A stretch of DNA of 64,000 bases. Source: an uncultured Pseudodesulfovibrio sp. (GTDB lineage: Bacteria > Desulfobacterota > Desulfovibrionia > Desulfovibrionales > Desulfovibrionaceae). The stretch is taken from NCBI RefSeq assembly GCF_963664965.1, contig NZ_OY761823.1, positions 444,001-508,000 of the forward strand, read 5' to 3'. Position numbers and translations under genes: made by a program. This document shows positions 37,282 through 53,464 of this stretch, in pieces (positions within the stretch are counted from its first letter, which is position 1; the number at the start of each line of letters is the position of its first letter). Under the pieces are notes generated by a model that had not been told where the DNA came from, did not search any database, and saw nothing but the letters and a program-made list of their open reading frames with translations.

Positions 37282-37959
37282 ATGGCTTCTGCACAACGCC
37301 CGATTCTTTGTCAAAAAGTGACGACCATGCTTCAAGGCAACTCCTTCTCCATCGGAGACCGGCTGCCCGGAGAACGCCGTCTTGCGGAAATGTTCAACAC
37401 GAGCCGCAACACCATCCGCGAGGTGCTCTGCAACCTCGAGACCATGGGGTATCTCGAAATCAGGGAAAAAAGCGGCTGCTACCTGAAGAGCAAGGACGGC
37501 CGCATGAGCTGGGAGATGCTACGCAGGCGCAAGAGCCTTGCCGCCAACCGCCAGCTTATCGAGACCCTCATGTTCGTGGCCCCACGGCTCGCCAAGGCCG
37601 AGGCATCACGCCTTTCCCCGAAAGACATCAAGAAACTCGAAGCCGCCACCGCAAAGCTGGGCGATGCAATCATCAACTTCGACCTGCCCACGGTCAGCCG
37701 CGAATACATCGCCTTCTTCCTGACGCTGGCCAAGGTCTCGGGCAACGACTACCTCATCCTGCTCATGAAGGAACTGGCCGTTGCGTCCCAGAACCTGACA
37801 CACGCGGGGACCGGCCTTTCCGAAGTGCAAATCGACTCGCTGTTCGCCTATCACGTGGAACTGTTCAACGCCCTCAAGAACGGCCAGCCCGAGCAGGCCG
37901 ACAAGCTTGCCGAGCGCTGCATGGAAACGTTCTACCAGCTCGTCCTCCCGGAAGACTAG
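37282..37959 (+). CDS. FadR-type GntR transcriptional regulator (cassette copy 1)
   Basis: A 225-residue regulator: winged helix (residues 8-72) with GDRLPGERRLAEMFNTSRNTIREVLCNLETMGYLEIREKSGCYL, then an all-helical FCD-like effector domain (80-220). Family members bind TGGTnnnACCA palindromes and respond to carboxylates. Two such sites (CTGGyTGGACCAG) lie upstream, one touching the start codon, indicating autoregulation. The start lacks a Shine-Dalgarno sequence. A 251-residue paralogue heads the second cassette at 47892. The small RR-motif protein gene follows after 15 bases. Confidence 0.88.
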   Translation: MASAQRPILCQKVTTMLQGNSFSIGDRLPGERRLAEMFNTSRNTIREVLCNLETMGYLEIREKSGCYLKSKDGRMSWEMLRRRKSLAANRQLIETLMFVAPRLAKAEASRLSPKDIKKLEAATAKLGDAIINFDLPTVSREYIAFFLTLAKVSGNDYLILLMKELAVASQNLTHAGTGLSEVQIDSLFAYHVELFNALKNGQPEQADKLAERCMETFYQLVLPED

Positions 37960-37974
37960 CCAAAGCCGCCCACC

Positions 37975-38172
37975 ATGAAACGAAGAGAATTTTTCAGCCG
38001 CTTCCTTCCCGGAACAGGCCATACGGAGAAAAAACCGGAAACGGATTCGAGTCATAAGGAACCGCCCAAGTCCCCCATGACTGAAAAGGAACTGTTTCTG
38101 CGCGCCATGGCCCTCGGGATCGACCCGGCTACTGTCACGCCCGGGCAATTGGAAAAACTGGTTTCCGAGTAG
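37975..38172 (+). CDS. Small RR-motif protein (cassette copy 1)
   Basis: A 65-residue protein starting MKRREFFSRFLPG, followed by a hydrophilic linker and a C-terminal helix with ALGIDPATVTPGQLEKLV. The second cassette has a counterpart in the same position (48635-48913) starting with TRRQLF and containing LGLDPDS, so both ends are conserved although the middle is not. The Arg-Arg start resembles Tat signals, but no hydrophobic core follows, so export is doubtful. The conserved position suggests an adaptor or small subunit. No family recognised. Confidence 0.65.
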   Translation: MKRREFFSRFLPGTGHTEKKPETDSSHKEPPKSPMTEKELFLRAMALGIDPATVTPGQLEKLVSE

Positions 38173-38254
38173 AAACCGCCAACAAGACCGTAGAGAGCAA
38201 AGTTGGAACACGGGGATTGATCACCCTCCCGGCGAGCTCGCAAAGGAGAGTAAG

Positions 38255-39658
38255 ATGGACAACAATAGCGTCAGCTATCTGGAGAGTCGGAAGCTGGTCA
38301 AACGCTGGAGCGGGCCGATCCCGGCTTTGATCAACACAATATTAATTTTTGCCTTTTTCTATGCGACGTGGTGGATTTTTCAGGACCCACGCGGCCTCAT
38401 GCGTATGTACACCCCCTACGTGGGCTACATGGTCTGCCGCTGGCTCCTGATCCTGTTCATCTGGGTCGCGTACATTTTCGATTTCTGGCCTTTCAAGCGG
38501 TCGTGGCTGAAAAAAGCGCATCCGCTTGTCAAGGGCTCGGTGCTGACGCTCGTCAGCGTGGTCGCCATGATCATCCTGATCAAGGGCTTCTTCGTCGATA
38601 TCCTCGGCAACTTCGGTATCGCCTACTTCGACCCCGCACGCCTCGAAGCGATGGGAATCACGGATTTCTATTCCATCGAGTACGCGGCTGAGGCCATCAT
38701 GATGTTCGCGGCCATCGCCTCCTGGCTCTCCCCGAGCTGGGTCGTGGCCTGTGAAAACGCCCCGTGGCAGAAGCTGGGACAGCCCGCACGCGGCATCACC
38801 ATCGTGCTGGTGACCTTCCTCTTCAGCATGATCGTCTACTTTCTGACCATGCACTCGCACATGGCGATCCTCTTCTACCCCTGGCAGAAATTCACGGCCA
38901 TCTGTCCGCCCTACTGGGAAGAATTCGCCAACACGGTTTCCGGCAACTTCCACATCGCGTGGATCATGTGCTGCACCGTGGTCGTCTGGCTGTTCGAGAC
39001 CATCTGGGAACGCTATCCCTTCAACCTGATCAAGCACGACGGACTGCGCCGCACCGCCTCCTTCTTCGGCATCATCGGCATCGCCCTCGCACTGTGCTTC
39101 TTCCTGTTCTACGCACAGGACATCGTCTGGGGCGAGACCATCCGCGGCACCCGCCGTCTCATGGCTCCTGACTGGCGCTGGCTGCATGTCGGTGAAATGG
39201 CCATCTTCTGGCTTGTCCCGACCCTGTACCTGACCTTCTACTGCAACAACTGGCCGACCAAATTCAGCCGTCCCGTCAACGTGTGCATCCGCACCCTGCT
39301 GACCGCCCTGATGGCCGTGTTCGTCTACGTTATCTACTACAAGACCTCCCACCTGTTCCTGGGAACCCAGAAGGGCTTCTCCCATCCGCAGCAGTTCCCC
39401 ATGATCCCCATGATCTGGCTGATCAACATCTTCCTGATCAACTACTGGTTCATGGACGGCTGGCCGGGTTGGAAGGCTGTTCCCAAGACCGCTGAAGAAC
39501 TGGAAGAGGTCAAGGAAGAGGTTGTTGCAAGCGATGTGAAGTGGACTCCGGGCATTGCCAAGGGCCTTGCCGTGGGTCTGGCTGCCGGTCTGGCGCTGTA
39601 CTTCGCCATCATCAACATCCTGCCGTGGATCAGCGCGAACTTCTCCATCATCAAGTAA
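38255..39658 (+). CDS. Polytopic membrane protein of unknown family (cassette copy 1)
   Basis: A 467-residue protein with about ten or eleven hydrophobic segments, starting YLESRKLVKRWSGPIPALI. Copy 2 (48976) is the same length within five residues and mostly identical by eye. Fully shared motifs include WWIFQDPRG, MRMYTPYVGYM, TMHxHMxIL in a membrane segment (paired His), VSGNFH, IMCCTVVVWL, APDWRWLHVGEMAIF and GTQKGFSHPQQFPMIPMIW. Conserved His, Met and Cys in or near membrane segments could bind metal or a prosthetic group. A good GGAG site precedes the ATG. The hydrolase gene follows after 22 bases. I do not recognise the family. Confidence 0.75.
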   Translation: MDNNSVSYLESRKLVKRWSGPIPALINTILIFAFFYATWWIFQDPRGLMRMYTPYVGYMVCRWLLILFIWVAYIFDFWPFKRSWLKKAHPLVKGSVLTLVSVVAMIILIKGFFVDILGNFGIAYFDPARLEAMGITDFYSIEYAAEAIMMFAAIASWLSPSWVVACENAPWQKLGQPARGITIVLVTFLFSMIVYFLTMHSHMAILFYPWQKFTAICPPYWEEFANTVSGNFHIAWIMCCTVVVWLFETIWERYPFNLIKHDGLRRTASFFGIIGIALALCFFLFYAQDIVWGETIRGTRRLMAPDWRWLHVGEMAIFWLVPTLYLTFYCNNWPTKFSRPVNVCIRTLLTALMAVFVYVIYYKTSHLFLGTQKGFSHPQQFPMIPMIWLINIFLINYWFMDGWPGWKAVPKTAEELEEVKEEVVASDVKWTPGIAKGLAVGLAAGLALYFAIINILPWISANFSIIK

Positions 39659-39680
39659 GCGCAGGAACAAGGAGCTAATT

Positions 39681-40850
39681 ATGAATAACGATAAAAAAGA
39701 CTTCAGCAGGCGCGATTTCATGAAGGGCGCAGCCACCGGCCTTGTCGCCGGAGCTTTCGCCGGAATGGGATTCTATTCCTACAGCCCTTCGGCCTATGAC
39801 CGCCTCCCCAAGGTAGAACGCAAACAGGAGGATTTCGGTGCATGCCGCAGCGTCCGCATCACCAACATCTCCGAGACAAGCTGGTTCAACAACGCGCACC
39901 TCATCGGCGACATCCACGAAGCCGGTGGCCTGCTCGTCAACCAGTACACCCTGAACTGGGCACCGTTTGCCAACGGCAAGGGCTCTGCCAAGGGTTCGTA
40001 TCAGGAAGGCATCGACTCCATTAAGGGATACCTGCCCAACGACCTGAAAAAGGCATGGGAAATCCAGAAGAAGCTGGCCCTGCACCCGGACAATCCGGGC
40101 GGCTATTCCTGCCTCATCGAGGTGGAATCGCTGGACGGCACCATGCACAAATACCTGCTGGACACCGGCTGGTCCTACGAGTGGATGGAAGACAGCTTCA
40201 AGCGCGAAGGCATCGACAAGATGTTGCAGGAACAGGAAATCGAAGCCCTGTTCATCTCGCACGAGCACTGGGACCACTTCTGGGGCCTGCCCGTCACCAC
40301 GAAATACGACAACCGCATTCCGCTGTACGTCCACGACGGCTTCTATGAGGAAGGCCTCCAGTACATCAAGGACTGCGGCTACAAGGGCGACCTGACCATC
40401 GTGGATCAGCCCGTGACGAAGATCATCCCGGGCATGGCGTTGCTCAAGTTTGACGTACCCATCATCAACCGCGTATTCGGAGAGACCTCCCTTGCCTTCA
40501 ACATCAAGGACAAGGGACTGGTGCTCATCTCAGGCTGCTGCCATCAGGGCATCCTGAAATTCGCGGACTTCGCCTTTGCCAACCTGAAGTACGACAAGGA
40601 CAAGTTCTACGGCATCTACGGCGGGCTTCACATCTCGCCCTTCGAGGACTGGGATCCCAAGTACGATGATCTCGTGATCTCGCTGGGCCAATGGGGCTTT
40701 GAGCGCATCGGCTGCAACCACTGCACCGGCCACCTCACCGCCAAGAAATTCATCGAAGCCGGATATCCGGTGGTGCGCGGCACGGCACGTTTCCGCTCCG
40801 CATCCAAGGATTATCTCGGCAACGGAGATAAAATCAACTTCGGTTGCTAA
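39681..40850 (+). CDS. Tat-exported metallo-beta-lactamase-fold hydrolase (cassette copy 1)
   Basis: A 389-residue protein with a canonical Tat signal (SRRDFMKGAATGLVAGAFAGMG), so exported folded. The MBL fold carries the metal motif HEHWDH (ISHEHWDHFWGLP), then SGCCHQG, YGGLHIS and CNHCTG, an arrangement like the COG1237 group that includes the dihydropterin-linked RFAP synthases. An insertion between the Tat signal and the first metal motif (about 90-150) is shared only with copy 2. The cofactor-loaded export route fits the downstream CobW-type GTPase, a candidate metal chaperone. The substrate is unknown. GGAG precedes the ATG. Confidence 0.82.
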   Translation: MNNDKKDFSRRDFMKGAATGLVAGAFAGMGFYSYSPSAYDRLPKVERKQEDFGACRSVRITNISETSWFNNAHLIGDIHEAGGLLVNQYTLNWAPFANGKGSAKGSYQEGIDSIKGYLPNDLKKAWEIQKKLALHPDNPGGYSCLIEVESLDGTMHKYLLDTGWSYEWMEDSFKREGIDKMLQEQEIEALFISHEHWDHFWGLPVTTKYDNRIPLYVHDGFYEEGLQYIKDCGYKGDLTIVDQPVTKIIPGMALLKFDVPIINRVFGETSLAFNIKDKGLVLISGCCHQGILKFADFAFANLKYDKDKFYGIYGGLHISPFEDWDPKYDDLVISLGQWGFERIGCNHCTGHLTAKKFIEAGYPVVRGTARFRSASKDYLGNGDKINFGC

Positions 40851-40865
40851 CCGTCACCATCAACA

Positions 40866-40900
40866 GGAGTCCGGTTTCTCTTCAGGAGAGACCGGGCTCC
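40866..40900 (+). other. Intercistronic RNA hairpin between hydrolase and GTPase genes (copy 1)
   Basis: GGAGTCCGGTTTCTC and GAGAGACCGGGCTCC pair over 15 bp with two G-T wobbles and a 5-base loop. There is no T-run, so it is not a normal terminator. A hairpin with different sequence occupies the same place in copy 2 (51590-51624). Confidence 0.6.
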
Positions 40901-40917
40901 ATACAACGAAAAACATC

Positions 40918-42744
40918 ATGAATCTTTCCGCCATCCTTCCTCCGCAGCGAAACAGGGACCGACAGGTCGACCTTTCCGAAATGCTCGTCAACTGCCTGCT
41001 GGCCGCCTGCCAGCATGACGAATTCAAACGGCTTGTGGGCTGGAAAGGCATGGCGGTCTGCCCTCGGGGCAAACAGGCATGGACCATGAAAGTCCGCTCC
41101 CGCCCCGGCGTGTTCGGGCTGTGCACCGCAGAATCCGACACGGACGAGCACGGCCAGCACGCGACCGTGGACCTGTTCTATTTCCCGGACCCGGACGAAC
41201 CGCTGCTGGAGACCATGTCCCTTGCTGCCAACCATGCCGCGGCGCACCCGGACTACACCGACACCCTGCGCCAGTTCTCCACCGACGATTTCTGGGCCAT
41301 GCCCTTCTACATCGGCATGCTCTCGGTTTCCCTCGGGGCGGACGAAGACGCGCTTTCCCTGCGGCTTCAGTCGGTCAGCCAAAAACTCTGCATCGCGCAG
41401 GACGGCGTGGCCATATCCGACGGCCAGTGGCTCATCAAACCGGGCGAAGCCGAGGAAGACATCCCGGCCCACGCCATTGCATCGGATTTCGTGCTTGTGC
41501 TCGCCGCCGCCGTGTCCAACAGCCTCGGCACAGCTCCCGCCCTGTTCAGCCGCGACGAAAATCCCGCCGCCGCCATGGGATATGACGCGGAAGGCAACCA
41601 CTTTTCCATTGACCGGGACATCTTCACCGTCACCGATGTCTTCGGCTGGGGAGAACGCGACACGCTTGAATCCCTCGCGTTCTCCGACCTTTCCCAAGAC
41701 GCCTGCTCAGGATCGCCCGAGGCCCGGGATGCGCTGCCCGACGCCATAAGGGACGCCCTGTTCTGGGAAACCCACGATCTCGCTGCCATCGCGCAAAAAG
41801 GCGAACATCCTCACGCCTTTGACAAGCGGCCGAGCCTGATCATACTCAGCGGATTTCTCGGCGCGGGCAAGACCACCTTCCTGAACCAGTTGCTGGAATA
41901 CCACGCGGCCCGCGACGAACTGGTCGCCATCATCCAGAATGAGATCGGCAAGACCGGCGTGGACGGCAAGCTCCTCGAAGGCGACGACTCCATCGTGGAA
42001 TTGGACGAAGGGTGCGTCTGCTGCACGCTGGCGGGCAACCTGTCCCGTGGCATGGAACAGCTCACCGCCCGGTTCAACCCGAAGGTCATCGTGCTGGAGA
42101 CCACCGGACTGGCGAATCCTTTCAACATTCTCAACGAGATCGAGAAGCTGCGGCCATTGGCCCGACTCGATTCCATCACCACGCTCGTGGACGCACAGAA
42201 CGGACCGGACCTGCTGGAAGAAAGCGACATCGCACGCAACCAGATCAAGGCCGCAGACACCATTCTCCTGAACAAGTGCGATCTGGTTTCCGAAACCGAG
42301 CTGGACGCCCTGACCGAGACCGTCCGCACCCTCAACAAGCGCGCCCAGCTTGTCAGGACCGAACACGGAACCATCAATCCGGGCACGATCTACGACACCG
42401 ACCTCCTCACGCAAAACAGCACGGGAATCCTTCCTGCCCCCATAAATGCATCCCATCACACCCATGCCATGGAAGGGTTCACGTCCCGACGTTTTGCTTT
42501 CAATATTCCCTTGAGCCGCAAGGACCTTGTGGAGGTGATCGAATCCCTCCCGGCCGAGGTCTTTCGGCTCAAGGGGATTGTAAAACTGGAAGACAGCGAG
42601 GAACCGGCAGTGGTGCAGTATGTCGCCGGAAGATACGAACTCTCCAGCCTCGGCAGCCCGTTCGACGATGAATCCTTCCTCGTCGCTATCGGCCGGGACA
42701 TGGACCTGTCCATCCTCGAAAACCTTGAAAGGAGTTGTGCATGA
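40918..42744 (+). CDS. CobW/G3E-family GTPase with novel N-terminal domain (cassette copy 1)
   Basis: A 608-residue protein. The C-terminal half is a G3E GTPase: P-loop GFLGAGKTT (about 312-320), EIGKTGVDGKLLEGDD, the metal motif CVCC (366-369) after ELDEG, ETTGLANP, NKCD (about 452) and a CobW C-terminal domain. Such GTPases deliver zinc, cobalt or iron to client enzymes. The first 300 residues form an extra domain, shared only with copy 2, that I do not recognise. The ATG at 40918 lacks a clear ribosome site and lies 17 bases after an RNA hairpin. The stop overlaps the ExbB gene (ATGA). Confidence 0.85.
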   Translation: MNLSAILPPQRNRDRQVDLSEMLVNCLLAACQHDEFKRLVGWKGMAVCPRGKQAWTMKVRSRPGVFGLCTAESDTDEHGQHATVDLFYFPDPDEPLLETMSLAANHAAAHPDYTDTLRQFSTDDFWAMPFYIGMLSVSLGADEDALSLRLQSVSQKLCIAQDGVAISDGQWLIKPGEAEEDIPAHAIASDFVLVLAAAVSNSLGTAPALFSRDENPAAAMGYDAEGNHFSIDRDIFTVTDVFGWGERDTLESLAFSDLSQDACSGSPEARDALPDAIRDALFWETHDLAAIAQKGEHPHAFDKRPSLIILSGFLGAGKTTFLNQLLEYHAARDELVAIIQNEIGKTGVDGKLLEGDDSIVELDEGCVCCTLAGNLSRGMEQLTARFNPKVIVLETTGLANPFNILNEIEKLRPLARLDSITTLVDAQNGPDLLEESDIARNQIKAADTILLNKCDLVSETELDALTETVRTLNKRAQLVRTEHGTINPGTIYDTDLLTQNSTGILPAPINASHHTHAMEGFTSRRFAFNIPLSRKDLVEVIESLPAEVFRLKGIVKLEDSEEPAVVQYVAGRYELSSLGSPFDDESFLVAIGRDMDLSILENLERSCA

Positions 42745-43343
42745 ACATCCTTCAGCAGGGCGGTTTCATGATGTGGCCGCTGCTCATCCTTTCCATCGCG
42801 GCCCTCGCGGTCATTGGAGAGCGTTTCATCATATTCACCACGCGGCCCTTCCCCTCTGCTGAAAAATGTGCGCGCATCTTCAATGAATTCAGACAGAGCG
42901 GCAAACAGGCCGCCCTTGAGCAGGTTGAGAAGATCACTCCGGCCTATCGCCGCATCTTCGAAATCCTGTTCACTGACCAGCCCCTGCCGCAAAAGGAACA
43001 GACCATCCATCTTGCCGGGGAAGAGGCACTCCATGCGCTCAACCACCGCCTCGACTTTCTGTCCACGGTTGCGACCACGGCACCGCTCATGGGCCTTCTG
43101 GGAACCGTGCTCGGCATGATCAACGCCTTTTCCCGACTGTCCGCCGCCGGGGATGTGGACATCTCCATGCTCGCGGGCGGCATCTGGCAGGCGCTGCTCA
43201 CCACGGCGGCAGGGCTGTCCATCGCCATCCCGACCCTGCTCGCACACCGCTGGTTCTGCCGCCAGCAGGACAAGACGGCCTACGCCATGCAGCATGCGGC
43301 CAACACCTTTCTCGAACAGCAGGAGCGTACGGAGCGAGACTGA
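42741..43343 (+). CDS. ExbB/TolQ-type proton channel subunit
   Basis: A 200-residue MotA/TolQ/ExbB family membrane protein with a first membrane helix (MMWPLLILSIAALAVIGERFIIF) and the conserved pair of helices with VATTAPLMGLLGTVLGMINAFSRL and GGIWQALLTTAAGLSIAIPTLLAH. With ExbD it converts proton flow into motion that TonB passes to outer-membrane transporters. GAAAGGAG precedes the ATG, which overlaps the GTPase stop by four bases, tying it to the cassette. Confidence 0.9.
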   Translation: MNILQQGGFMMWPLLILSIAALAVIGERFIIFTTRPFPSAEKCARIFNEFRQSGKQAALEQVEKITPAYRRIFEILFTDQPLPQKEQTIHLAGEEALHALNHRLDFLSTVATTAPLMGLLGTVLGMINAFSRLSAAGDVDISMLAGGIWQALLTTAAGLSIAIPTLLAHRWFCRQQDKTAYAMQHAANTFLEQQERTERD

Positions 43344-43777
43344 TGATTTCCTTCACACGCAAGCAATCCCGTCCGGCCTCGCCGGACATCACCCCGCTGT
43401 TGGATGTGGTCTTCATCCTGCTGATCTTCTTCGTCATCTCGGCCGTGTTTACGGCAAAAGGCATGGACATGGAACTGCCGCCCGCCGAGTCGGCACAAGC
43501 CGTTTCCGGCAAATCCATGGAAATCGAGCTGCACGCCAACGGCGACCTGTTCTGCGACACCGCCCCGATCACCCTGCTCGACCTCTCCCATATTCTGGAA
43601 AACACCGCTGAAAAACCGCTCGCCATGCAGCCGCAGCACATCCTGCTCAAGGCCGCGCCCGAGGCAAAGGTGGAGTCGTTCCTGCGGGTCGTGGACCTTG
43701 TCCGCACGCACGCCTTCAGCAACCTGATAATCGCCACCGGCAGCAAGAAAGCCGAATTGGCCGAGTCCTCCCGATGA
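43343..43777 (+). CDS. ExbD/TolR-type energy-transducing protein
   Basis: A 144-residue protein with one N-terminal membrane helix carrying the key aspartate (SPDITPLLDVVFILLIFFVISAVF), followed by a periplasmic domain ending in ILLKAAPEAKVESFLRVVDLVRTHAFSNLIIAT. It partners with ExbB at 42741. Start and stop overlap neighbouring genes (stop/start with ExbB; ATGA with the TonB-like gene). Confidence 0.9.
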   Translation: MISFTRKQSRPASPDITPLLDVVFILLIFFVISAVFTAKGMDMELPPAESAQAVSGKSMEIELHANGDLFCDTAPITLLDLSHILENTAEKPLAMQPQHILLKAAPEAKVESFLRVVDLVRTHAFSNLIIATGSKKAELAESSR

Positions 43778-44301
43778 CATCCCGTCAGCTTTTCGGTCTC
43801 TGCATTGCGATTTCAATCTGTATACACTTCCTGCTGGTGCAGCAGAACTGGGCACCGGAACCGGTCATGGGATCGGATCAGATAGTGATTCCCGCGGACT
43901 TTGACATCGCGGTGAGCACTCCGGGCAACGCCCTCGCCCTTGAACAGGGAATGGAAGAGAATAACGATGGGGAAAACGCGGAAGAAACGGCGCGGCGACT
44001 GAAACGGCTGGCGATAAAGCACTACCTCAAACAGGTCAATGAGGCCATCGAACGGCGCAAATTCCTGCCCGGAAACGGGGACCTGTCCGACCTGATCGGC
44101 AACGTGCTCTACACCTTCCGCATCCGGCCCGACGACAGTTTTTCCGGCATCCGCCTCGTGCGTTCTTCCGGGAACGCCCGCCTCGATCAGGCAGCCGGAC
44201 GCGCCATTGCCGCAGCCAGCGGCGTGACCAAACGGCCCAAAATCCTCCGGGGGCAGGCTTTCTCCCTCAAAATCACCGTCAAATACCAGTACAGCATGTG
44301 A
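43774..44301 (+). CDS. TonB-like protein
   Basis: A 175-residue protein: N-terminal membrane helix (LFGLCIAISICIHFLLV), a short acidic periplasmic linker with no proline-rich spacer, and a TonB C-terminal domain (about 90-175: VNEAIERRKFLPGNGDLSDLIGNVLYTFRIRPDDSFSGIRLVRSSGNARLDQAAGRAI). It would contact an outer-membrane receptor, but no TonB-dependent receptor gene is in the window, so the partner is encoded elsewhere. The missing Pro-rich spacer makes it short for TonB. It ends the cassette-1 transcript and is convergent with the second PAS gene. Confidence 0.82.
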   Translation: MTSRQLFGLCIAISICIHFLLVQQNWAPEPVMGSDQIVIPADFDIAVSTPGNALALEQGMEENNDGENAEETARRLKRLAIKHYLKQVNEAIERRKFLPGNGDLSDLIGNVLYTFRIRPDDSFSGIRLVRSSGNARLDQAAGRAIAAASGVTKRPKILRGQAFSLKITVKYQYSM

Positions 44302-44329: not shown

Positions 44330-45625
44330 TCAGCCCTGCCGCCTGCGGCGCGTTCGGATGGCTTCGTACAGCGGGACGAGAACGGAATCAAACGTGTCGG
44401 GCGCAAGGTCCACGAAGCGGTCCGGCTCAGTGGAACAGAGAATCAACACCACCTGCAACTCGCCGTTTTCATAGAACGGCTTGGCAAAATAGGACCGCAG
44501 ACCGCGCGGAATGAACAAGGCCCAGTCAATGGGCTTGATGCTGTCCATTGTGTCGTCCACGACCAGATGGTCGAGATTGAAACGGGCGATATCCTCGGCA
44601 ATGGTGCCCCGGTAGGAGAACTCCTCTCCCGGAGGCATGTCCGCCAGCGGAGCGCCCGCACCGGTGACGAACACCTTGTTGCTGTGCGTCAGGATATCCG
44701 AAAGCATGACCGCATTGCACCGTCTGGCAATGTCGGGCTGCTCCAGCACCCTGGCGAGCATGGCCGCAATGTCGGGAGCGCCGCTGAATATCTCCCGGAG
44801 CCTGCCGGACACATCGCGGTCAGCCTGCTGATGCACTTCGGAAACAGCCGATCTGTCCACCTCGGAATGCGGGTTCACGGAAACCCGGATCAGGGCATTC
44901 TGCCGCCAGCGCACCCATTGCAGGGTGGCATCGGCCTCGAACGGCTCTCCCTGAGTGGTGCAGAACTCCAGATTGCCGGTCCACTTACGCTCCAACGGCA
45001 GGTCTTCGAGAATGGCGCTCAGGGGATCTTCTCCTGCTGCCGGACAAAGCTCGACGAATTCAGGACGGTTCACGCTCAAGGGACGGGGCAGGCCGAAAAG
45101 ATCGCGCGCAGCAGCATTGGCCTGTTTCAGGTGATGGGTTTCGTGGTCCATGAGCATGACCGGGGTGGGGACGTTGCCGATACGCATGCGGGCCGCGGCA
45201 TCGGTCTCCTGAATTTCGCGGATGACTTCCACGGTGTCCCCGATATCGAGGAGATACCCGTAATAATACTGCGGGTCGGATGAATTGACCGCGCCGGTCA
45301 GCTTGAGCCACATGATACTGTCCGCCGGGGTATGCACCCGGAACACGGTCGCCATGGTCCGCCCTTCCCGGACGGCATCCAGAAACGCGTCCAGCAGGTG
45401 GGCGTCCTCGGGCAGGAGCATCTGCTTGCGGAACGCCTTGTTCTTCAGGAACAGCCGCGCGCTGTCCCCCAGCGGATGCAGGGAATGATCGTTGAGAAAT
45501 TCGATCCGAGAACGGGCGATCTCAATACGCCAGAGCAATGCGGGAAAATCATCCACAAAACTCCTGAGATCCTCCATGGGAATGGTGCGCCTTTTCTGTG
45601 CGCCGGTATCGTCTTCACCTGTCAT
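44330..45625 (-). CDS. PAS-type sensor protein without a recognisable output domain (copy 2)
   Basis: A 431-residue paralogue of the PAS protein at 35711. Shared features are the N-terminal PAS (FPALLWRIEIARSRIEFLNDHSL), a second PAS (VMLMDHETHHLKQANAAARDLFGLPR) and the C-terminal block IAEDIARFNLDHLVVDDTMDSIKPIDWALFIPRG. Again there is no enzymatic or DNA-binding output. It is on the opposite strand, divergent from the SLC13 transporter gene. The two PAS proteins flank cassette 1 and probably report on the same kind of signal. Confidence 0.7.
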   Translation of the reverse strand: MTGEDDTGAQKRRTIPMEDLRSFVDDFPALLWRIEIARSRIEFLNDHSLHPLGDSARLFLKNKAFRKQMLLPEDAHLLDAFLDAVREGRTMATVFRVHTPADSIMWLKLTGAVNSSDPQYYYGYLLDIGDTVEVIREIQETDAAARMRIGNVPTPVMLMDHETHHLKQANAAARDLFGLPRPLSVNRPEFVELCPAAGEDPLSAILEDLPLERKWTGNLEFCTTQGEPFEADATLQWVRWRQNALIRVSVNPHSEVDRSAVSEVHQQADRDVSGRLREIFSGAPDIAAMLARVLEQPDIARRCNAVMLSDILTHSNKVFVTGAGAPLADMPPGEEFSYRGTIAEDIARFNLDHLVVDDTMDSIKPIDWALFIPRGLRSYFAKPFYENGELQVVLILCSTEPDRFVDLAPDTFDSVLVPLYEAIRTRRRRQG

Positions 45626-47562: not shown

Positions 47563-47587
47563 TCGGCAAAGAAACTCGAAAATCGAA

Positions 47588-47616
47588 GGGAGCACGGACA
47601 GTTACCGTGCTCCCTT
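47588..47616 (+). terminator. Terminator of the SLC13 gene
   Basis: A perfect 10-bp stem (GGGAGCACGG / CCGTGCTCCC), 7-base loop, followed by six T residues. Confidence 0.9.
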
Positions 47617-47704
47617 TTTTATTTCAACGCGCAATCCGCCCCGCCCCGTCGCCTTCTCCTCCTAAACGCCTTTTATCGATACTTCCACCACGCCCTGTAT
47701 AAAA

Positions 47705-47737: not shown

Positions 47738-47754
47738 AATTGGTGCTACCAATT
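47738..47754. promoter_or_regulatory. Operator of the second GntR regulator
   Basis: AATTGGTGCTACCAATT is a perfect 7-3-7 palindrome matching the FadR-family site AATTGGTnnnACCAATT. It lies about 140 bases upstream of the GntR gene and differs in outer bases from the sites of the first regulator. Confidence 0.75.
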
Positions 47755-47839
47755 CTAATATTGGCTCAAGAATGGACAATAATCGGTTCATTTTTACAAT
47801 TTTTTCATTTTTTTTTGCTTCCCCGATTCAGCAAACGCT

Positions 47840-47856
47840 AATTGGTAACTCCAATG
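47840..47856. promoter_or_regulatory. Candidate operator of the second GntR regulator, proximal
   Basis: AATTGGTAACTCCAATG is an imperfect copy of the central palindrome, 36 bases before the start codon, where binding should repress. Confidence 0.5.
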
Positions 47857-47891: not shown

Positions 47892-48647
47892 ATGACGAAA
47901 AAGGCCAAAGCGCTCGAAAAACTCGGACAGGTCATTCAGGACATGGGACTCAAGGCCGGAGACCGGTTGCCGCCGGAACGCCGACTTGTGGACATGCTCG
48001 ACATAAGCCGCAACACCCTTCGCAGCATCCTCCACTCCCTTGAAGCACGGGGGCTGGTCTCCATCCGTCCGGGCAGCGGCTGCTATCTGCGCGTAGGCAT
48101 CTCCGCGGCGCACGACAACCCGCTCGACCTCAACCTGAGCCCGGAAAAGGCCATGGCCGACCAGCTCGAAGCCGCTTACATGCTGCTGCCCATGGTCGCC
48201 GAACACGCGGCGGAGCGCATCGGGGAACGCCACCTCGAAGACCTCAAGAAATGCAGCGTGAACATATCCCGTTCCATTTTCCAGAAATCAGCGGACCGCG
48301 TCTGGAGCGAAAGCCTGACATTCTTCCGGCTCGTGGCCGTGGGCACGGGCAACGACTTTCTGGTGCGTACCGTGGAGCAGGTCTGCTCCGCGGACATGGC
48401 GGCATACGACTTCTTTTTCACCCTGCGGCGGGAAGAGCGCGAAGCCATCTTTGCCGACCACATCAAGCTGCTGCACGCACTACGGGCGCGGGACGGGGAA
48501 TGGGCACGGGCCATCACGTCCAACTATTTCCTTCGCATGTGCAACATTCTGGAAGAACGCGAACAGGTTCCCATGACCGATCTGGTCTACCGGTCCCTGC
48601 GGGAAAAGGCGGAGCAGGAACAAAAGGACGGGCCATGGCGAACATGA
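47892..48647 (+). CDS. FadR-type GntR transcriptional regulator (cassette copy 2)
   Basis: A 251-residue paralogue of the regulator at 37282: winged helix with AGDRLPPERRLVDMLDISRNTLRSILHSLEARGLVSIRPGSGCYLRVG and a helical effector domain with IFADHIKLLHALRARDGEWARAI. Three TGGTnnnACCA-like sites lie upstream, indicating autoregulation. Because its sites differ from those of copy 1 in the outer bases, the two cassettes are probably controlled separately. The start at 47892 is preceded by GAGG; a TTG six bases upstream is less likely. The stop overlaps the next gene. Confidence 0.88.
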   Translation: MTKKAKALEKLGQVIQDMGLKAGDRLPPERRLVDMLDISRNTLRSILHSLEARGLVSIRPGSGCYLRVGISAAHDNPLDLNLSPEKAMADQLEAAYMLLPMVAEHAAERIGERHLEDLKKCSVNISRSIFQKSADRVWSESLTFFRLVAVGTGNDFLVRTVEQVCSADMAAYDFFFTLRREEREAIFADHIKLLHALRARDGEWARAITSNYFLRMCNILEEREQVPMTDLVYRSLREKAEQEQKDGPWRT

Positions 48648-48913
48648 CGCGAAGACAACTTTTCAGGGGGAGTTTCAAGGCTGGGCGGCACGTTGCCGCC
48701 GTGGCCGCAGGCGAAAGGGAACCCAGACCGCCGGAGCGGGCACCGCTCGACCGGGCCGATCTGGAAGCCATCGCCGGGGACTTCCCCCCGGAATTGCTTT
48801 CTATGGAAGCAGAACGACTGGGGCTGGACCCGGATTCCCCGGACCGCGACGCCCTGCTGACAGCGGTGTACGAAGCCATGGCAGGAAGCGGTCCGGAGAA
48901 AACCGGGGAATAA
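48635..48913 (+). CDS. Small RR-motif protein (cassette copy 2)
   Basis: A 92-residue protein overlapping the end of the GntR gene. It begins MANMTRRQLFRGSFKAG, has a Pro/Arg-rich linker and an acidic C-terminal helical region with ERLGLDPDSPDRDALLTAVYEAM. The position, Arg-Arg start and LGLDP element match the 65-residue protein of cassette 1. AAGGA lies six bases before the first ATG; a second ATG at 48644 is possible. No family recognised and no hydrophobic segment present. Confidence 0.65.
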   Translation: MANMTRRQLFRGSFKAGRHVAAVAAGEREPRPPERAPLDRADLEAIAGDFPPELLSMEAERLGLDPDSPDRDALLTAVYEAMAGSGPEKTGE

Positions 48914-48975
48914 CCGAAAACCGGATAAACGGGGTGGGGCCCGTGATCCGGCAACCCCCTTGAGAGGAGGTTCTC

Positions 48976-50394
48976 ATGGAACGGTTTGGCGAAGGCTACT
49001 TGGAAGAGCGGAAACTCGTCAAGCGCTGGTCAGGGCCTATCCCTGCACTGGTAAGCTTGGTTGTGACGCTCGCCGTATTCTATCTGACCTGGTGGATTTT
49101 TCAGGACCCGCGCGGCATCATGCGTATGTACACCCCGTACGTGGGCTACATGTACTGCCGCTGGTGGCTCATCATGATGATCTGGATGGTCTACATCTTC
49201 AACTTCTGGCCCTTCAAGAGGAAGTGGCTGGAAACAACACATCCGCTGGTGAAAGGCGCAATTCTGACCACCGTTTCCGTGGTCATTCTGGTCGCGCTCA
49301 TCAAGGGATTCTTCGAATACCTGCTGGGCAACTTCGGACTGGCTTACTTCAACCCGGAACAGCTGGAAAAACTCCCCGGCGTGACGAGCTTCTTCGCCAT
49401 CGAGTACTCGGCGCTGGCCATCCTGATGTTCGCGGCCATTGCGAGCTGGCTCTCGCCCGCATGGGTCGTGGCCTTCGAGGAAGCGCCGTGGCAGAAGCTC
49501 ACGCAGCCTGCCAAGGGTTTCTCCATTCTCATCATGACCTTCTTCCTGTCCACGGTGGTCTACTTCGTGACCATGCACCCGCACATGGGCATTCTCTACC
49601 ACCCGTGGCAGTACTTCACCTCCATCGCCCCGCCGTACTGGGAACAGTTCGCGGACACCGTGTCCGGCAACTTCCACGTCTCGTGGATCATGTGCTGCAC
49701 GGTCGTGGTCTGGCTGGTGGAAACCATCTGGGAACGCTATCCCTTCAGCCTCATCAAGAACGACTGGGCGCGCCGGTTCGCATGCTTCTTCGGCATCATC
49801 GCCATCGCCCTTGCCATGCACTTCTTCCTCTACTTCGCTCAGGAACTCACCTGGGGCGAGGCCATCCGGGGAACCCGCCGCGCATTCGCGCCTGACTGGC
49901 GCTGGCTGCATGTCGGTGAAATGGCGATCTTCTTCCTTGTCCCGGCCCTGTTCGTGACCTTCTACTGCGACAACTGGCCCAAGAAGTACTCCCTGCCCGT
50001 GAACGTGCTCATCCGCACCGTGGTCACACTGATCGGCGCCATTGCGCTGTACATTGTGTACTACAAGACGTCGCACCTGTTCCTCGGCACGCAGAAAGGG
50101 TTCTCCCATCCGCAGCAGTTCCCCATGATCCCGATGATCTGGCTGGTCAATATCTGGCTGGTCCACCACTGGTTCATGGACAACTGGCCTGCATGGAAGA
50201 TGGTTCCCAAGACCGCCGAAGAGATCGAAGCCGATCACGCCGCCCACAAGGCCGCCATTGAAGATGTCCGCTGGACACCGCGTTTCGGTGCCGGTCTGGG
50301 CGCAGGCGTCGCCATGGGCGTGGCCTTCTACTTCATCACTGTCTGGGCGCTGCCCGCAGTGTATGCATCCATCAACATCATCCCCGGCAAGTAG
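48976..50394 (+). CDS. Polytopic membrane protein of unknown family (cassette copy 2)
   Basis: A 472-residue paralogue of the protein at 38255, with the same predicted membrane layout and long identical stretches such as LVKRWSGPIPAL, DPRGIMRMYTPYVGYM (one substitution), VSGNFHVSWIMCCTVVVWL and GTQKGFSHPQQFPMIPMIW. The paired histidines are present as TMHPHMGILYHPW, with an extra His. The C-terminus (EIEADHAAHKAAIEDVRW, then a last membrane segment) diverges most. GAGGAGG precedes the ATG. The hydrolase gene follows after 18 bases, so the two products likely act together. Confidence 0.75.
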   Translation: MERFGEGYLEERKLVKRWSGPIPALVSLVVTLAVFYLTWWIFQDPRGIMRMYTPYVGYMYCRWWLIMMIWMVYIFNFWPFKRKWLETTHPLVKGAILTTVSVVILVALIKGFFEYLLGNFGLAYFNPEQLEKLPGVTSFFAIEYSALAILMFAAIASWLSPAWVVAFEEAPWQKLTQPAKGFSILIMTFFLSTVVYFVTMHPHMGILYHPWQYFTSIAPPYWEQFADTVSGNFHVSWIMCCTVVVWLVETIWERYPFSLIKNDWARRFACFFGIIAIALAMHFFLYFAQELTWGEAIRGTRRAFAPDWRWLHVGEMAIFFLVPALFVTFYCDNWPKKYSLPVNVLIRTVVTLIGAIALYIVYYKTSHLFLGTQKGFSHPQQFPMIPMIWLVNIWLVHHWFMDNWPAWKMVPKTAEEIEADHAAHKAAIEDVRWTPRFGAGLGAGVAMGVAFYFITVWALPAVYASINIIPGK

Positions 50395-50412
50395 CCCGGA
50401 AAGGAGATTCGC

Positions 50413-51570
50413 ATGTCAGACAACATGAAGAGACGCGACTTTCTGAAGGGAGCCGCCACCGGCGTCGGCGTCGGCCTGCTGGGAGCCATGGGGCTGTATT
50501 CCTACTCCCCGGCGCGCAAGAGCAACTTCACACAGGCCGAAAGGAAGATGACCGACATCGGCGTGTGCAGAAGCGTCAAGGTCACCAACATCACGGAAAC
50601 CAGTTGGTTCGAAAACGGCGTGCTCATGGGCGACATCAAGGGCGCGGGCGGCCTGCTCGTGAACCAGTACGACTTCAACTGGCCCCCGTTCGGCAACGGC
50701 AAGGGCTTGGGCAAAGGCTCGTATCAGGAAGGCATCGCCCCGATCAAACACCTGCTGCCCGCCAAGCTGGACGAGGCATGGGAGATCATTGAAGGCAATT
50801 CCGTGCACCCTGAAAACGCAGGCGGTTACGCCGCGCTGGTGGAAGTCGAGGAAATGAGCGGCAACAAGCGCAAATTCCTCCTCGACGTGGGCTGGTCCTA
50901 CAAATGGTGCGACGAGTGCTTCAAGCGTGAGGGCATCGACAAGATGCTGGAGAACAAGGAAATCGAAGCCCTGTTCTTCTCCCACGAGCACTTCGACCAC
51001 TTCTGGGGACTTCCTGTCGCACTGAAATACGACCCGGAAATCACCATCTACATCCCCGAGGGCTTCTACCCGGAAGGATTGCAGTACATCAAGGACTGCG
51101 GCCACAAGGGCAAGCTCATCACGGTCAAACCCGGCCTGAACAAGGTCATCCCCGGCATGGCGAGCTACGTCTTCGCCATCCCCATCATCTGCCGCGTCTA
51201 CGGGGAGCAGTCCCTGTACTTCAACGTGGCGGACAAGGGCCTCGTCAGCGTCACGGGCTGCTGCCATCAGGGCATCATCCGCTTTGCCGAGACCGCGTAT
51301 AACGAGATCAAGTACGAAAACGACAAGTGCCACGGCATCTACGGAGGCCTGCACATCTCGCCGTTTGACGACTGGGACCCCAAGTACGACGACCTCGTCA
51401 TCTCGCTGGGCGACTACGGCTTCGAGCGCATCGGCTGCAACCACTGCACCGGCGTGCTCTGCGCCAAGAAGTTCATCGCCGCCGGATATCCGGTGATCGA
51501 GGGAACCGCGCGCTACCGTTCCAAGGACAAGGCATACCTTGGCAACGGTGACGTCATAACCTTTGGATAA
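50413..51570 (+). CDS. Tat-exported metallo-beta-lactamase-fold hydrolase (cassette copy 2)
   Basis: A 385-residue paralogue of the hydrolase at 39681. Tat signal KRRDFLKGAATGVGVGLLGAMG; metal motif HEHFDH (FSHEHFDHFWGLP), then TGCCHQG, YGGLHIS and CNHCTG. The region between signal and metal site (ITETSWFENGVLMGDIKGAGGLLVNQYDFNWPPFGNGKG) is highly conserved with copy 1 and may form the substrate pocket. GGAG precedes the ATG. An RNA hairpin separates it from the GTPase gene. Confidence 0.82.
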   Translation: MSDNMKRRDFLKGAATGVGVGLLGAMGLYSYSPARKSNFTQAERKMTDIGVCRSVKVTNITETSWFENGVLMGDIKGAGGLLVNQYDFNWPPFGNGKGLGKGSYQEGIAPIKHLLPAKLDEAWEIIEGNSVHPENAGGYAALVEVEEMSGNKRKFLLDVGWSYKWCDECFKREGIDKMLENKEIEALFFSHEHFDHFWGLPVALKYDPEITIYIPEGFYPEGLQYIKDCGHKGKLITVKPGLNKVIPGMASYVFAIPIICRVYGEQSLYFNVADKGLVSVTGCCHQGIIRFAETAYNEIKYENDKCHGIYGGLHISPFDDWDPKYDDLVISLGDYGFERIGCNHCTGVLCAKKFIAAGYPVIEGTARYRSKDKAYLGNGDVITFG

Positions 51571-51589
51571 CCAACCCATCCTCAGACCT

Positions 51590-51624
51590 GTCGGTCGCCC
51601 CTTCCCCCGAGAGGGGCGGCCGAC
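51590..51624 (+). other. Intercistronic RNA hairpin between hydrolase and GTPase genes (copy 2)
   Basis: GTCGGTCGCCCCT and AGGGGCGGCCGAC pair over 13 bp with one G-T wobble. The sequence is unrelated to the copy-1 hairpin, but place and size match, 16-17 bases before the GTPase start in both. Confidence 0.6.
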
Positions 51625-51640
51625 ACACCGGAGACGCACC

Positions 51641-53464
51641 ATGTCCATAGCCCTCAAAACCCTGCTGCCCCCGGCTCTGACGCACGACCCCGCACTGGTC
51701 GCAACCGAGCTGCCCCGCGCCCTGATGACGCGAGCCAACTTCATCCCCGGCGTCCGCCACCGCCTCGGCTGGCGCGGCGTGCGCGACTGCGCCAAGGGCA
51801 AGGGCGGGCTGACCGTGAAAATCACGGGCATGGCAGGCGTGTACGGACTGGAATTCCTGACCAACAATCAGAACGGCGGCACAGGACGGGCCTCGTTCTA
51901 TATTTCCTATTTCCCGGCTCCCGACGAGGAGCTGGTCGAATCCTTCAGCGTACAGGCGGGCATTGCGGCACAGGCCGACGACTATCTGGACCGGGTGCGG
52001 GAATTCACCCTGCACCACGACCTGCGCGCCCTGTTCTCCATTGCCGTGCTCGACGCGTATTTCATGCCCGAATCGCAGGGTATCGCCCTTTCGCTGTCGG
52101 CCCCGGAACTGGACACCATCATGGCCATGGACGGCGTGACCGTGGAAACCCCCAACGGCCCGGTACAGGCCGTGGCTCCGGGCAATGCGGACCAGAATCT
52201 CCCGGCATGGGACACGGCCCTTCCCCTGTTCAACGCACTGGCTGCCTCGGCATCCTACTGCCTCGGCATGCCCCCGCAGTCCCTAACCCGGCACACGGAA
52301 CCGGGCTCGCGCCGCTTCTACGGCGATATGGTTGAACTCCACGCCAGACTCGCCCCGGACCTGCGAAGCACCCGCCTCGGGCTGAGCTGGGACACAACGG
52401 TCCCGGACGACCCGAATTTCACTACACCGGACATTTCATGGGCCGCTCCGAACCCGCTGCCAGCCGAATATGCAGACGCCCCGTGGACCACGGCAGACCT
52501 TCCGGGCGCGGCAAACAGCCTCGACAAACGCACCATGGGCATCACGGACCGCCCGCGGCTCATCGTTCTCACGGGGTTTCTCGGCTCGGGCAAGACCACC
52601 TTCCTTGCCCGATTCATCGAGGAACAGGCCGCCAAAAACGGCTTTGTGGCCGTTGTCCAGAACGAGATCGGACAAAAGGGCCTCGACGGGAAGCTGCTCG
52701 GCCAGAGCTACGCCGTGACCGAGGTGGACGAGGGATGCGTGTGCTGCACCCTCGCGGGCAGCCTGCGCTCGGCGCTTTCCGGCATCATGTCGGAATTCCA
52801 GCCAGATTTCGTGGTCCTGGAAACCACAGGGCTTGCCAATCCCGCCAACCTGCTCACGGAAATAGCGGACCTCGACGACCTGCTCGACTTCGCCTCGGTG
52901 ACCACCCTCTTGGATGCCTCCTGCGCCCCCCGCGCCCTTGTCGACTATGAGGTCGCCCGCAGTCAGGTGCGCCTTGCCGACATCCTCCTGCTCAACAAGA
53001 CCGACCTTGCCGATGAAAAGGAACTTCACGACCTCGAAGCCCGCATCCGGGAACTCAATCCCACGGCGGACCTGCACCGTGTGGTCAATGGCGATATCCC
53101 GGCAGCCACGCTCTACGGCGTGAACTTCCGCAAATCCCTCAACCGTCCGGCCCCGCATCTGGCCCCCATGGGCATGCACGCCACCCATGGAGATGACGAC
53201 ATCCAGAGCGCGCTTATCACGCTGGATACCCCGCTTGACCGCGAGACGTTCCGGCGCGGCGTGGCAGGACTGCCGGATCAGGTGCTCCGCGCCAAGGGTG
53301 TGGTTCAGTTCAGCGACACCAGCGAACCCGAAATATTCCAATACGTACCGGGGTCACACGCACTGACTCCCGCCGATGAACACACCGAGGAACGCTTTCT
53401 CGTCATCATTGGCCGGGAAGCCCCGAGTGTTGCGCGGGATTTCCGTTCGGCCATCGGCATTTAA
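51641..53464 (+). CDS. CobW/G3E-family GTPase with novel N-terminal domain (cassette copy 2)
   Basis: A 607-residue paralogue of the GTPase at 40918. The P-loop GFLGSGKTT begins near residue 312, the metal motif CVCC is at 366-369 exactly as in copy 1, ETTGLANP and NKTD follow, and a CobW C-terminal domain closes the protein. The N-terminal 300 residues again form the unrecognised extra domain (LGWRGVRDCAKGKGGLTVKITGMAGVYGLEF). GGAG precedes the ATG. No Exb/TonB genes follow this copy; a terminator does, so the two cassettes may share one TonB system. Confidence 0.85.
   Translation: MSIALKTLLPPALTHDPALVATELPRALMTRANFIPGVRHRLGWRGVRDCAKGKGGLTVKITGMAGVYGLEFLTNNQNGGTGRASFYISYFPAPDEELVESFSVQAGIAAQADDYLDRVREFTLHHDLRALFSIAVLDAYFMPESQGIALSLSAPELDTIMAMDGVTVETPNGPVQAVAPGNADQNLPAWDTALPLFNALAASASYCLGMPPQSLTRHTEPGSRRFYGDMVELHARLAPDLRSTRLGLSWDTTVPDDPNFTTPDISWAAPNPLPAEYADAPWTTADLPGAANSLDKRTMGITDRPRLIVLTGFLGSGKTTFLARFIEEQAAKNGFVAVVQNEIGQKGLDGKLLGQSYAVTEVDEGCVCCTLAGSLRSALSGIMSEFQPDFVVLETTGLANPANLLTEIADLDDLLDFASVTTLLDASCAPRALVDYEVARSQVRLADILLLNKTDLADEKELHDLEARIRELNPTADLHRVVNGDIPAATLYGVNFRKSLNRPAPHLAPMGMHATHGDDDIQSALITLDTPLDRETFRRGVAGLPDQVLRAKGVVQFSDTSEPEIFQYVPGSHALTPADEHTEERFLVIIGREAPSVARDFRSAIGI

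Follow-up and report, generated by a model that had tools for sequence, protein, structure and literature searches.

ComEC, a membrane channel with a periplasmic metallo-beta-lactamase (MBL) domain, shares with the locus described here the concept of pairing a membrane protein with an outer-face MBL hydrolase. In contrast to ComEC, the two partners—a polytopic membrane protein, termed MEM, and a Tat-signal MBL hydrolase, termed MBL—are separate polypeptides, and no Pfam, NCBIfam or PDB family match was found for MEM, the sole trace being DUF2070 at E 1 (MEM2). The hydrolase itself resembles the PDB entries 7dck, 2p4z and 3h3e, which we take to be COG1237-type metallo-beta-lactamase-fold hydrolases; the HxHxDH motif and the C-terminal HCTG/HCSG region align. 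It differs from them by a Tat signal and about 140 residues preceding the fold (fewer in a distant form of the cassette) and by its position directly downstream of MEM in all 76 named loci with enough flanking sequence, the named loci being the 80 best MEM matches. The third partner is a GTPase of the COG0523/CobW metallochaperone group (ZigA, CobW). Walker A, GCxCC and CobW_C are common to both, and the ZigA and CobW models match at scores below their equivalog cut-offs of 600 and 332.1 bits (116.3 and 111.4 for copy 1, 82.5 and 98.6 for copy 2), whereas the cassette GTPase carries at its N terminus a domain, DomX, for which no Pfam, NCBIfam or PDB family match was found (best PDB E 1). Finally, cassette 1 is followed by genes of the same three families as the ExbB-ExbD-TonB energiser, here in a genome without a TonB-dependent receptor match.

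Two cassettes in the 64-kb window

The window, a 64,000-nucleotide stretch from an uncultured Pseudodesulfovibrio sp., contains cassette 1 at 37282-42744 and cassette 2 at 47892-53464. Both encode, on the plus strand and in intact reading frames, a GntR/FCD regulator, a small RR protein, MEM, MBL and DomX-CobW. A sequence-only reading had described a five-gene cassette present twice in the same order with similar protein lengths, and both loci bear this out (copy 1/copy 2: MEM 467/472, MBL 389/385, CobW-type protein 608/607 aa). The features are as follows.

35711..36991, plus: cassette 1 PAS protein (the longer ORF 35663-36991 matches PAS)
37028..37055, plus: terminator-like hairpin in the PAS 1/GntR1 gap (pattern match, not proof)
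37160-37173 and 37266-37279, plus: two operator-like sites, ACTGGNTGGACCAG, 0 mismatches each
37282..37959, plus: GntR/FCD regulator 1 (PF00392, PF07729)
37975..38172, plus: small RR protein 1, 65 aa (by eye, twin-arginine-like start and no clear hydrophobic stretch)
38255..39658, plus: MEM1, 467 aa, polytopic (12 hydrophobic segments, taken as about 11 transmembrane)
39681..40850, plus: MBL1, Tat-signal metallo-beta-lactamase-fold hydrolase
40918..42744, plus: DomX-CobW1, DomX of about 300 aa and CobW GTPase with GCxCC (Pfam, sequence)
42741..43343, plus: ExbB/TolQ-type protein (PF01618)
43343..43777, plus: ExbD-type protein (PF02472)
43774..44301, plus: TonB-type protein (PF13103, PF03544)
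44330..45625, minus: PAS protein of cassette 2 (PF13426)
47585-47617: terminator-like hairpin 5′ of cassette 2 (pattern match only)
47740..47854, plus: operator-like sites TTGGTGCTACCAA (47740) and its one-mismatch copy TTGGTAACTCCAA (47842)
47892..48647, plus: GntR/FCD regulator 2 (PF00392, PF07729)
48644..48913, plus: small RR protein 2 (from sequence; upstream start at 48635 possible)
48976..50394, plus: MEM2, 472 aa
50413..51570, plus: MBL2, Tat-signal hydrolase
51641..53464, plus: DomX-CobW2 (PF02492, PF07683)
53509..53536, plus: terminator-like hairpin 3′ of cassette 2 (pattern match, not proof)

Gene order and distribution across genomes

The claim of a conserved multi-gene unit is confirmed by fixed order and co-inheritance. 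A gene-neighbourhood search, suggested along with that claim, found the MEM–MBL order to be widespread rather than confined to one genome, and DomX-CobW comes next in 68/68 named loci with enough flank; an RR-type ORF lies upstream of MEM in 52/78 loci. Among 149 sampled genomes of the family, 35 bear MEM, and MEM, MBL and DomX are all present in each of these 35. Four exceptions to co-occurrence were encountered: a GntR gene with a piece of DomX but neither MEM nor MBL (L143 in G057), an orphan DomX-CobW (L144 in G126), an orphan MBL on a 3.6-kb contig (L146 in G030) and a second MBL (L145 in G122). MEM had no match in the plasmid collection. No other gene cluster was found to recur in many cassette loci. 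The cassettes apparently represent self-contained envelope systems that have spread between lineages with their own PAS and GntR/FCD control genes. Literature searches covering titles and the beginnings of abstracts returned neither a description of this cassette nor a characterised pair of MEM and hydrolase, which to that extent agrees with the proposal of an undescribed system.

Divergence and origin of the two copies

The two copies have diverged, as had been noted, to 67% identity in MEM, 64% in MBL and 35% in DomX-CobW; GntR1 and GntR2 are 29% identical over 201 positions. A search of the genome returned two MEM matches, two close MBL matches and one weak MBL match of 29%. A phylogeny of both copies had likewise been called for: in both the MEM and the MBL tree, copies 1 and 2 fall into separate cross-phylum parts and therefore do not constitute a recent tandem duplicate. 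The MBL tree recovers MEM clades A, B, D and G, and the DomX and GTPase trees nearly do so. The view that the two cassettes are old, separately controlled versions is supported.

Regulators and neighbouring genes

Both regulators carry GntR and FCD domains scoring above cut-off; FCD regulators often bind carboxylates. Distinct operator-like sites precede the two genes, in line with the separate operators noted earlier: the GntR1 pattern occurs twice upstream of its gene, against a chance expectation of 0.02 with up to one mismatch. The GntR2 pattern is not rare: when one mismatch is allowed, 1.64 matches are expected and three, including one at 36996, were found.

The neighbours are assigned differently from the sequence-only reading, in which both PAS proteins and Exb-TonB were specific to copy 1, and SLC13 and a histidine kinase to copy 2. 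One PAS protein belongs to each cassette, the first having up to 67% identity to PAS genes of copy-1-clade loci (L032) and the second up to 68% identity to their counterparts in the copy-2 clade (L077). The C-terminal domain of PAS 1 is possibly GAF-like, with GAF_2 scoring below cut-off in three of four scanned relatives and giving no match in the C-terminal piece of the window's own protein. SLC13 was found as a cassette neighbour in 0/54 loci and a histidine kinase in 0/59 (threshold 150 bits or more); both are rejected as cassette parts and are incidental. The terminator-like hairpins at either side, pattern matches only, set these two genes apart from cassette 2.

ExbB, ExbD and TonB have family matches for all three proteins and accompany the cassette in 20/51 loci, being not found in 31/51. 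They recur in 10/13 loci of the copy-1 clade and 7/8 of the gut clade (B, 2/11; D, 0/12; E, 0/4 cassettes), hence are a recurrent unit member in some clades and not a novelty of this copy. Searches for TonB-dependent receptors with PF00593 and PF07715 gave 0 matches in this genome, while positive controls were detected. The idea that MEM-carrying genomes generally lack such receptors was rejected: a Plug match occurs in 87/149 family genomes, many MEM carriers among them.

The hydrolase and the DomX-CobW protein

PF00753 scores 23.9 bits for MBL1 and 22.3 for MBL2 against a cut-off of 22.7, and a profile built from MBL relatives matches the MBL-fold chain 7dck at E 2e-18. H194, H196, D198, H199, H288 and H347—presumably the six metal ligands, as judged from the MBL fold—are invariant in 74 sequences. 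The Tat-signal model TIGR01409 scores 22.5 and 21.7 bits in the two MBLs (cut-off 16.7), and the Pfam TAT model 18.4 and 20 bits, under its cut-off of 22.7. The earlier assignment as an exported metallohydrolase is in line with these matches, and a metallohydrolase of the exported (Tat) type is supported at the level of prediction.

Both GTPases exceed the Pfam cut-offs for CobW and CobW_C. In the 80 loci, 69 CobW-type ORFs reach at least 560 aa; GCxCC is present in all 69 and Walker A in 68, as counted on rows not selected by the Walker A pattern. In the distant form of the cassette, DomX occurs without a fused GTPase in 10/10 loci. The GTPase therefore looks like a part added to DomX by fusion in the main lineage, rather than a core component, and CobW metallation would not be a general need. 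LarB/LarC and a LarA-type gene are found close to two distant-form loci (L122, L129), and a small CxxCH protein just precedes MBL in two others (L136, L138), that of L138 with a weak cytochrome match.

MEM and its sister family

According to a simple, crude topology estimate in which the weak segment 203-221 was set aside, four of the five MEM loops placed in the periplasm show higher conservation than every loop placed in the cytoplasm. At odds with this estimate, many K/R residues occur in the predicted periplasmic loop 286-311; conservation of the predicted periplasmic C-terminal tail is low (0.47). E142, H202, Q211, R308 and H311 are among the residues that do not vary in 76 sequences; we place these five on the predicted periplasmic side, Q211 falling in the weak segment, read as a loop.

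MEM is homologous to a sister family (hhalign 99.6% over 387 columns, only 24% identity) for which no family record was found. The two are alike in an H-x-x-E motif and, by eye, in repeated WPF-type loops. They differ in context: CoA ligases, CoA transferases or mutases adjoin the sister family, and no cassette MBL or DomX adjoins it in the listed loci; G415 has a cassette and a sister-family gene about 14 kb apart. Genes for acyl-CoA synthetase, CoA-transferase, acyl-CoA dehydrogenase or acyl-CoA mutase were found within 1.5 kb in 12/15 sister loci; near cassette MEM, acyl-CoA genes of the kinds sought were found in 0/80 loci within 3.5 kb and in 1/80 within 6.5 kb, a contrast that is biased because the query genes came from sister loci, although the annotation of those genes is independent. 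Moreover, the 15 sister genomes share family codes (f7, f38 and f91 three each, f15 two), and the 12 loci are therefore not all independent. This context points to carboxylic acids, not metal handling, as the purpose of the system. Since cassette loci themselves lack adjoining acyl-CoA genes, the substrate guess rests on a family of 24% identity.

Possible functions

The best explanation, to which we tentatively assign a probability of about 0.38, is that a hydrolase exported by Tat releases an organic acid, which is handled by MEM, and that DomX-CobW metallates the hydrolase before export. The core would consist of MEM, a di-metal MBL, DomX and the small RR protein. DomX-CobW would help to load MBL with metal in the cytoplasm, the compartment in which Tat substrates acquire their fold. 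The enzyme would then reach the periplasm already folded, dock on or beside MEM and cleave a masked organic acid such as an ester or lactone, and MEM, being carboxylate-permease-like, would handle the freed acid. Anatomy, gene order, co-inheritance, the intact metal ligands, the conserved predicted periplasmic loops of MEM and the acyl-CoA context of its sister family have been shown, and metallation, docking, substrate class and transport are inferred. The Lar-type genes near two distant-form loci and the frequent binding of carboxylates by FCD regulators also favour this reading; that SLC13 beside copy 2 is not a conserved neighbour counts against it, as do the lack of acyl-CoA genes near the cassettes and the unfused DomX of the distant form.

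Alternatively, MEM might itself act as an enzyme embedded in the membrane or as a scaffold that binds metal, MEM and MBL together modifying an envelope component with nothing transported. The five invariant residues on the predicted periplasmic side, the H-x-x-E motif shared with the sister family and the CxxCH protein preceding MBL would fit this idea. However, the sister family lies by acyl-CoA genes, where a permease is expected, and the CxxCH protein occurs in only 2/10 distant loci, so that we regard it as unlikely.

A role in defence or detoxification, in which PAS and GntR would sense a toxic substance or a foreign signal and the exported MBL would destroy it, seems rather improbable. 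Patchy presence in the family, the interleaving of phyla in the tree, the cassette's own regulators and the lack of another recurrent cluster are in its favour, but MEM identity of 61% or more across phyla within the 80 best-match loci suggests a constant substrate, and the sister context is metabolic.

Metal acquisition or homeostasis, in which supplying metal would be the task of the GTPase, the TonB system and the exported metalloprotein, is quite improbable in our estimate. The universal GCxCC of the long CobW-type ORFs and the ExbB-ExbD-TonB genes at 20 loci agree with it; against it stand the adjoining conserved regulators (GntR/FCD and PAS), the unfused DomX of the distant form, the 31 loci in which ExbB-ExbD-TonB was not found and the missing receptor match in this genome. 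The same evidence divides the earlier proposal of a metal-dependent periplasmic pathway: the six predicted ligands of MBL uphold metal dependence, whereas unfused DomX and a sister context suggestive of organic acids speak against metal handling.

It is highly improbable that MEM founds a new membrane superfamily coupling a periplasmic hydrolase to organic-acid handling, and that ExbB-ExbD-TonB of the copy-1 type drives MEM or MBL directly instead of a receptor. Chance or a purely local arrangement—tandem duplication of genes without functional link, as the mere 11 kb between the copies might suggest—is already contradicted by their separate tree positions and the fixed gene order.

Implications

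What is new is the composition: MEM and DomX have no known family, and no description was found in the titles and abstract openings searched. Should a hydrolase-permease pair prove true, its logic would be of a known kind and its parts new. The cassette could supply a defined client for a CobW-type metallochaperone, and its study could reveal the function of the unnamed sister membrane family beside acyl-CoA genes. If the direct-drive idea were true, a TonB motor would serve something other than a receptor, and would do so in a genome where no TonB-dependent receptor is recognisable. With its fixed order of three to nine genes and its occurrence across phyla, from sulfate reducers and gut Desulfovibrionaceae to alphaproteobacteria (for example Rhodobium and Rhodoplanes) and further groups, the cassette marks an unrecognised envelope process, and the two-copy genome with its operator-like sites makes the cassette directly testable by deletion.

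Two copies of one cassette

The window holds two versions of the same five-gene set (cassettes 1 and 2), both on the + strand and 11 kb apart. As the sequence-only reading had described, each runs in the order GntR regulator, small protein with a twin-arginine-like start (RR), polytopic membrane protein (MEM), Tat-signal hydrolase of the metallo-beta-lactamase fold (MBL), and CobW GTPase fused to an N-terminal domain of ~300 aa (DomX).

Genes of the two cassettes and of the adjoining TonB system
37282-37959, +, GntR, cassette 1
37975-38172, +, small RR protein, cassette 1
38255-39658, +, MEM1
39681-40850, +, MBL1
40918-42744, +, DomX-CobW1
42741-43343, +, ExbB, after DomX-CobW1
43343-43777, +, ExbD, after ExbB
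43774-44301, +, TonB, after ExbD
47892-48647, +, GntR, cassette 2
48644-48913, +, RR, cassette 2
48976-50394, +, MEM2
50413-51570, +, MBL2
51641-53464, +, DomX-CobW2

The divergence claimed for the copies is borne out: MEM, MBL, DomX-CobW, and GntR are 67%, 64%, 35%, and 29% identical between them. Their operator-like sites are unlike. A search of the window's genome found no third MEM. Terminator-like hairpins number 25 versus 16.9 in shuffles; the three longest on the + strand (37028-37055, 47585-47617, 53509-53536) all lie outside both cassettes, and shorter ones occur also within them.

Elsewhere in the window, a PEP-mutase/methylisocitrate-lyase family gene (34430-35302, -) adjoins an indolepyruvate-decarboxylase-like TPP enzyme (32750-34408, -), each below its equivalog cut-off, and the two (32750-35302) may form a pair of the phosphonate or keto-acid type. 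Two adjoining DUF1538 genes (25672-27243, -), an FmdE-domain protein (30325-31296, -), and a subtilase-domain protein of about 1000 aa (17886-20915, -) are also present.

Conservation of gene order and neighbours

A single scan of named genomes with a MEM alignment, entered through two peptide patterns, yielded 155 confirmed relatives; locus counts refer to the best 80 of these, the weaker 75 lying outside them. The gene order is upheld in other genomes: among loci with enough flank, MBL directly follows MEM on the same strand in 76/76 and DomX-CobW lies downstream in 68/68. GntR is found upstream in 49/72; of the 23 loci lacking it, 16 belong to clade D of the MEM tree (mostly Desulfobacteria) and four to clade E (Campylobacterota, Deferribacteres). 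In 52/78 loci MEM is preceded by a short ORF whose start is of the RR type, and 42 of these 52 also carry a loose C-terminal motif, a motif derived from those same proteins, while 6/400 random positions pass both tests. Clade-D loci (L055, L073, L076, L078, L080, L083, and others) encode, mostly between MBL and DomX-CobW, a small family of proteins, presumably exported, of about 100-130 or 220-240 aa, the one member scanned having no Pfam match above cut-off.

Among the same best 80, a PAS gene lies within 5.2 kb in 45/62 loci with enough flank, and ExbB, ExbD, and TonB are all present in 20/51 (by clade: 10/13 in A, the copy-1 clade; 7/8 in the gut clade; 2/11 in B; 0/12 in D). The SLC13 gene recurs in 0/54 and the histidine kinase gene in 0/59 of these loci, and their reading as copy-2-specific neighbours is not supported. 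Nor do both PAS genes of the window belong to copy 1, as had been supposed: the one at 35711-36991 is nearest, at up to 67% identity, to PAS genes from loci of the copy-1 clade, and the one at 44330-45625 (-) is nearest, at up to 68%, to those from loci of the copy-2 clade.

PF00593 and PF07715 have no match in the window's genome, E. coli, Caulobacter, and Bacteroides controls being positive; its ExbB-ExbD-TonB genes (42741-44301) thus stand in a genome without a TonB-dependent receptor match. Receptor absence as a property of the cassette system is ruled out: Plug domains occur in 87/149 family genomes, many MEM carriers among them, and the absence is therefore a feature of this genome.

Phylogeny and co-inheritance

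In the MEM tree, many of whose rows are binned genomes, the two copies sit in different supported groups: one of 24 rows, nine of them alphaproteobacterial, for copy 1, and one of 23 rows, five of them alphaproteobacterial, for copy 2. A second tree of 91 rows recovers clade A as a single group (100/99) and clade B in 12% of bootstrap trees only. The MBL tree recovers groups A, B (at 94), D, and G, with E split; the DomX and GTPase trees nearly recover the MEM groups, the exceptions being D, which neither keeps whole, and A, which the GTPase tree also breaks up. Phyla are interleaved in the MEM tree, with 17 changes for Thermodesulfobacteriota, a pattern that fits transfer and paralogy and proves neither. 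One further contig among the best 80 relatives, JADGEX010000002.1, holds both types (L032, L054).

The genes are co-inherited: among 149 sampled family genomes, MEM occurs in 35, DomX in 37, and MBL (threshold E 1e-30) in 36, and 35/35 MEM genomes also hold MBL and DomX. The exceptions are G057 and G126 (DomX without MEM) and G030 (MBL without MEM). The G057 locus (L143) retains no more than pieces of GntR and DomX and resembles a decayed cassette; that of G126 (L144) is an orphan DomX-CobW gene. A diverged MBL paralogue without MEM (L145, 7137-8150, -) lies near genes that resemble formate dehydrogenase genes by eye. The MEM match of G158:C7 (L127) contains three in-frame stops, apparently a decaying gene or a binning or assembly fault.

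Ten loci from ten genomes (L122-L125, L129, L134-L138) represent a distant form, with a shorter MEM (409-414 aa, 26-29% identical to MEM1 in the five measured). In 10/10, MBL adjoins MEM, a small RR-type protein is present (only its C-terminal part called in L123), and DomX is adjacent without a fused GTPase. The core therefore consists of MBL, MEM, RR, and DomX, the GTPase being a main-lineage fusion. Neighbours here include LarB and LarC (L122, 422-2405, -), a LarAH14/15/16-like LarA-type gene below cut-off (L129, 5367-6758, -), a small CxxCH protein ahead of MBL (L136, L138), and NifS/NifU-type genes adjoining the unit (L124, L135).

Protein features and the sister family

MEM has no match in Pfam, NCBIfam, or the PDB. 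Hydropathy over 76 sequences gives 12 hydrophobic segments, crudely read as ~11 predicted TM segments with the N terminus inside, the weakest (203-221) being set aside by the positive-inside rule; loop 286-311, predicted periplasmic, is K/R-rich, contrary to that rule. Mean conservation is 0.88, 0.70, about 0.83, 0.81, and 0.86 in the predicted periplasmic loops (C-terminal tail 0.47) and 0.68, 0.73, 0.70, 0.79, 0.75, and 0.58 in the predicted cytoplasmic parts. The MBL profile (74 members) matches PDB 7dck (2e-18), 2p4z, and 3h3e, and six residues that we take, from the fold, to be metal ligands are invariant. The motifs of CobW-type ORFs of at least 560 aa in the 80 loci are intact, with GCxCC in 69/69, Walker A in 68/69, and an NKxD-type motif in 61/69. 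DomX has no PDB relative below E 1 and none in Pfam.

Four proteins from a phylum search align with MEM (387 columns, 99.6%), and a search of 395 genomes brought this sister family to 15 members (L118, L119, L121, L126, L172-L182). Acyl-CoA metabolism genes (AMP-binding acyl-CoA synthetases, CoA transferases, acyl-CoA dehydrogenases, thiolase, methylmalonyl-/isobutyryl-CoA mutase) lie within 1.5 kb in 12/15 loci versus 0/80 cassette loci within 3.5 kb (one within 6.5 kb), a contrast biased by query genes drawn from the sister loci, the annotations being independent. The three others are L126, L174, and L176 (a 3.3 kb contig), and in some of the 12 the sole acyl-CoA genes are mutase genes in divergent orientation. 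The acyl-CoA setting of the sister loci suggests that carboxylic acids are what the MEM superfamily handles at the membrane.

A possible periplasmic pathway

The MBL, CobW, GntR, and TonB parts are of known kinds; MEM, the sister family, and DomX are without a name in the libraries searched. The literature searched, which took in only a minority of subscription papers and no bioRxiv preprints, contained no description of the cassette, in keeping with the view that it has not been described as a system.

The best reading as a whole, to which we give a probability of roughly 0.38, is that a metallated MBL, exported by Tat, releases an organic acid, which is then handled by MEM. That the proteins form an integral-membrane enzyme complex is unlikely; a role in detoxification is improbable, and one in metal supply a shade more so. 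If an exported MBL does release an organic acid, it would fold and take up metal in the cytoplasm with the assistance of DomX-CobW, leave via Tat, and act in the periplasm; metallation, docking, substrate, and transport are what we infer here. The PAS and GntR proteins would control the unit, and MEM would handle the acid that MBL releases.
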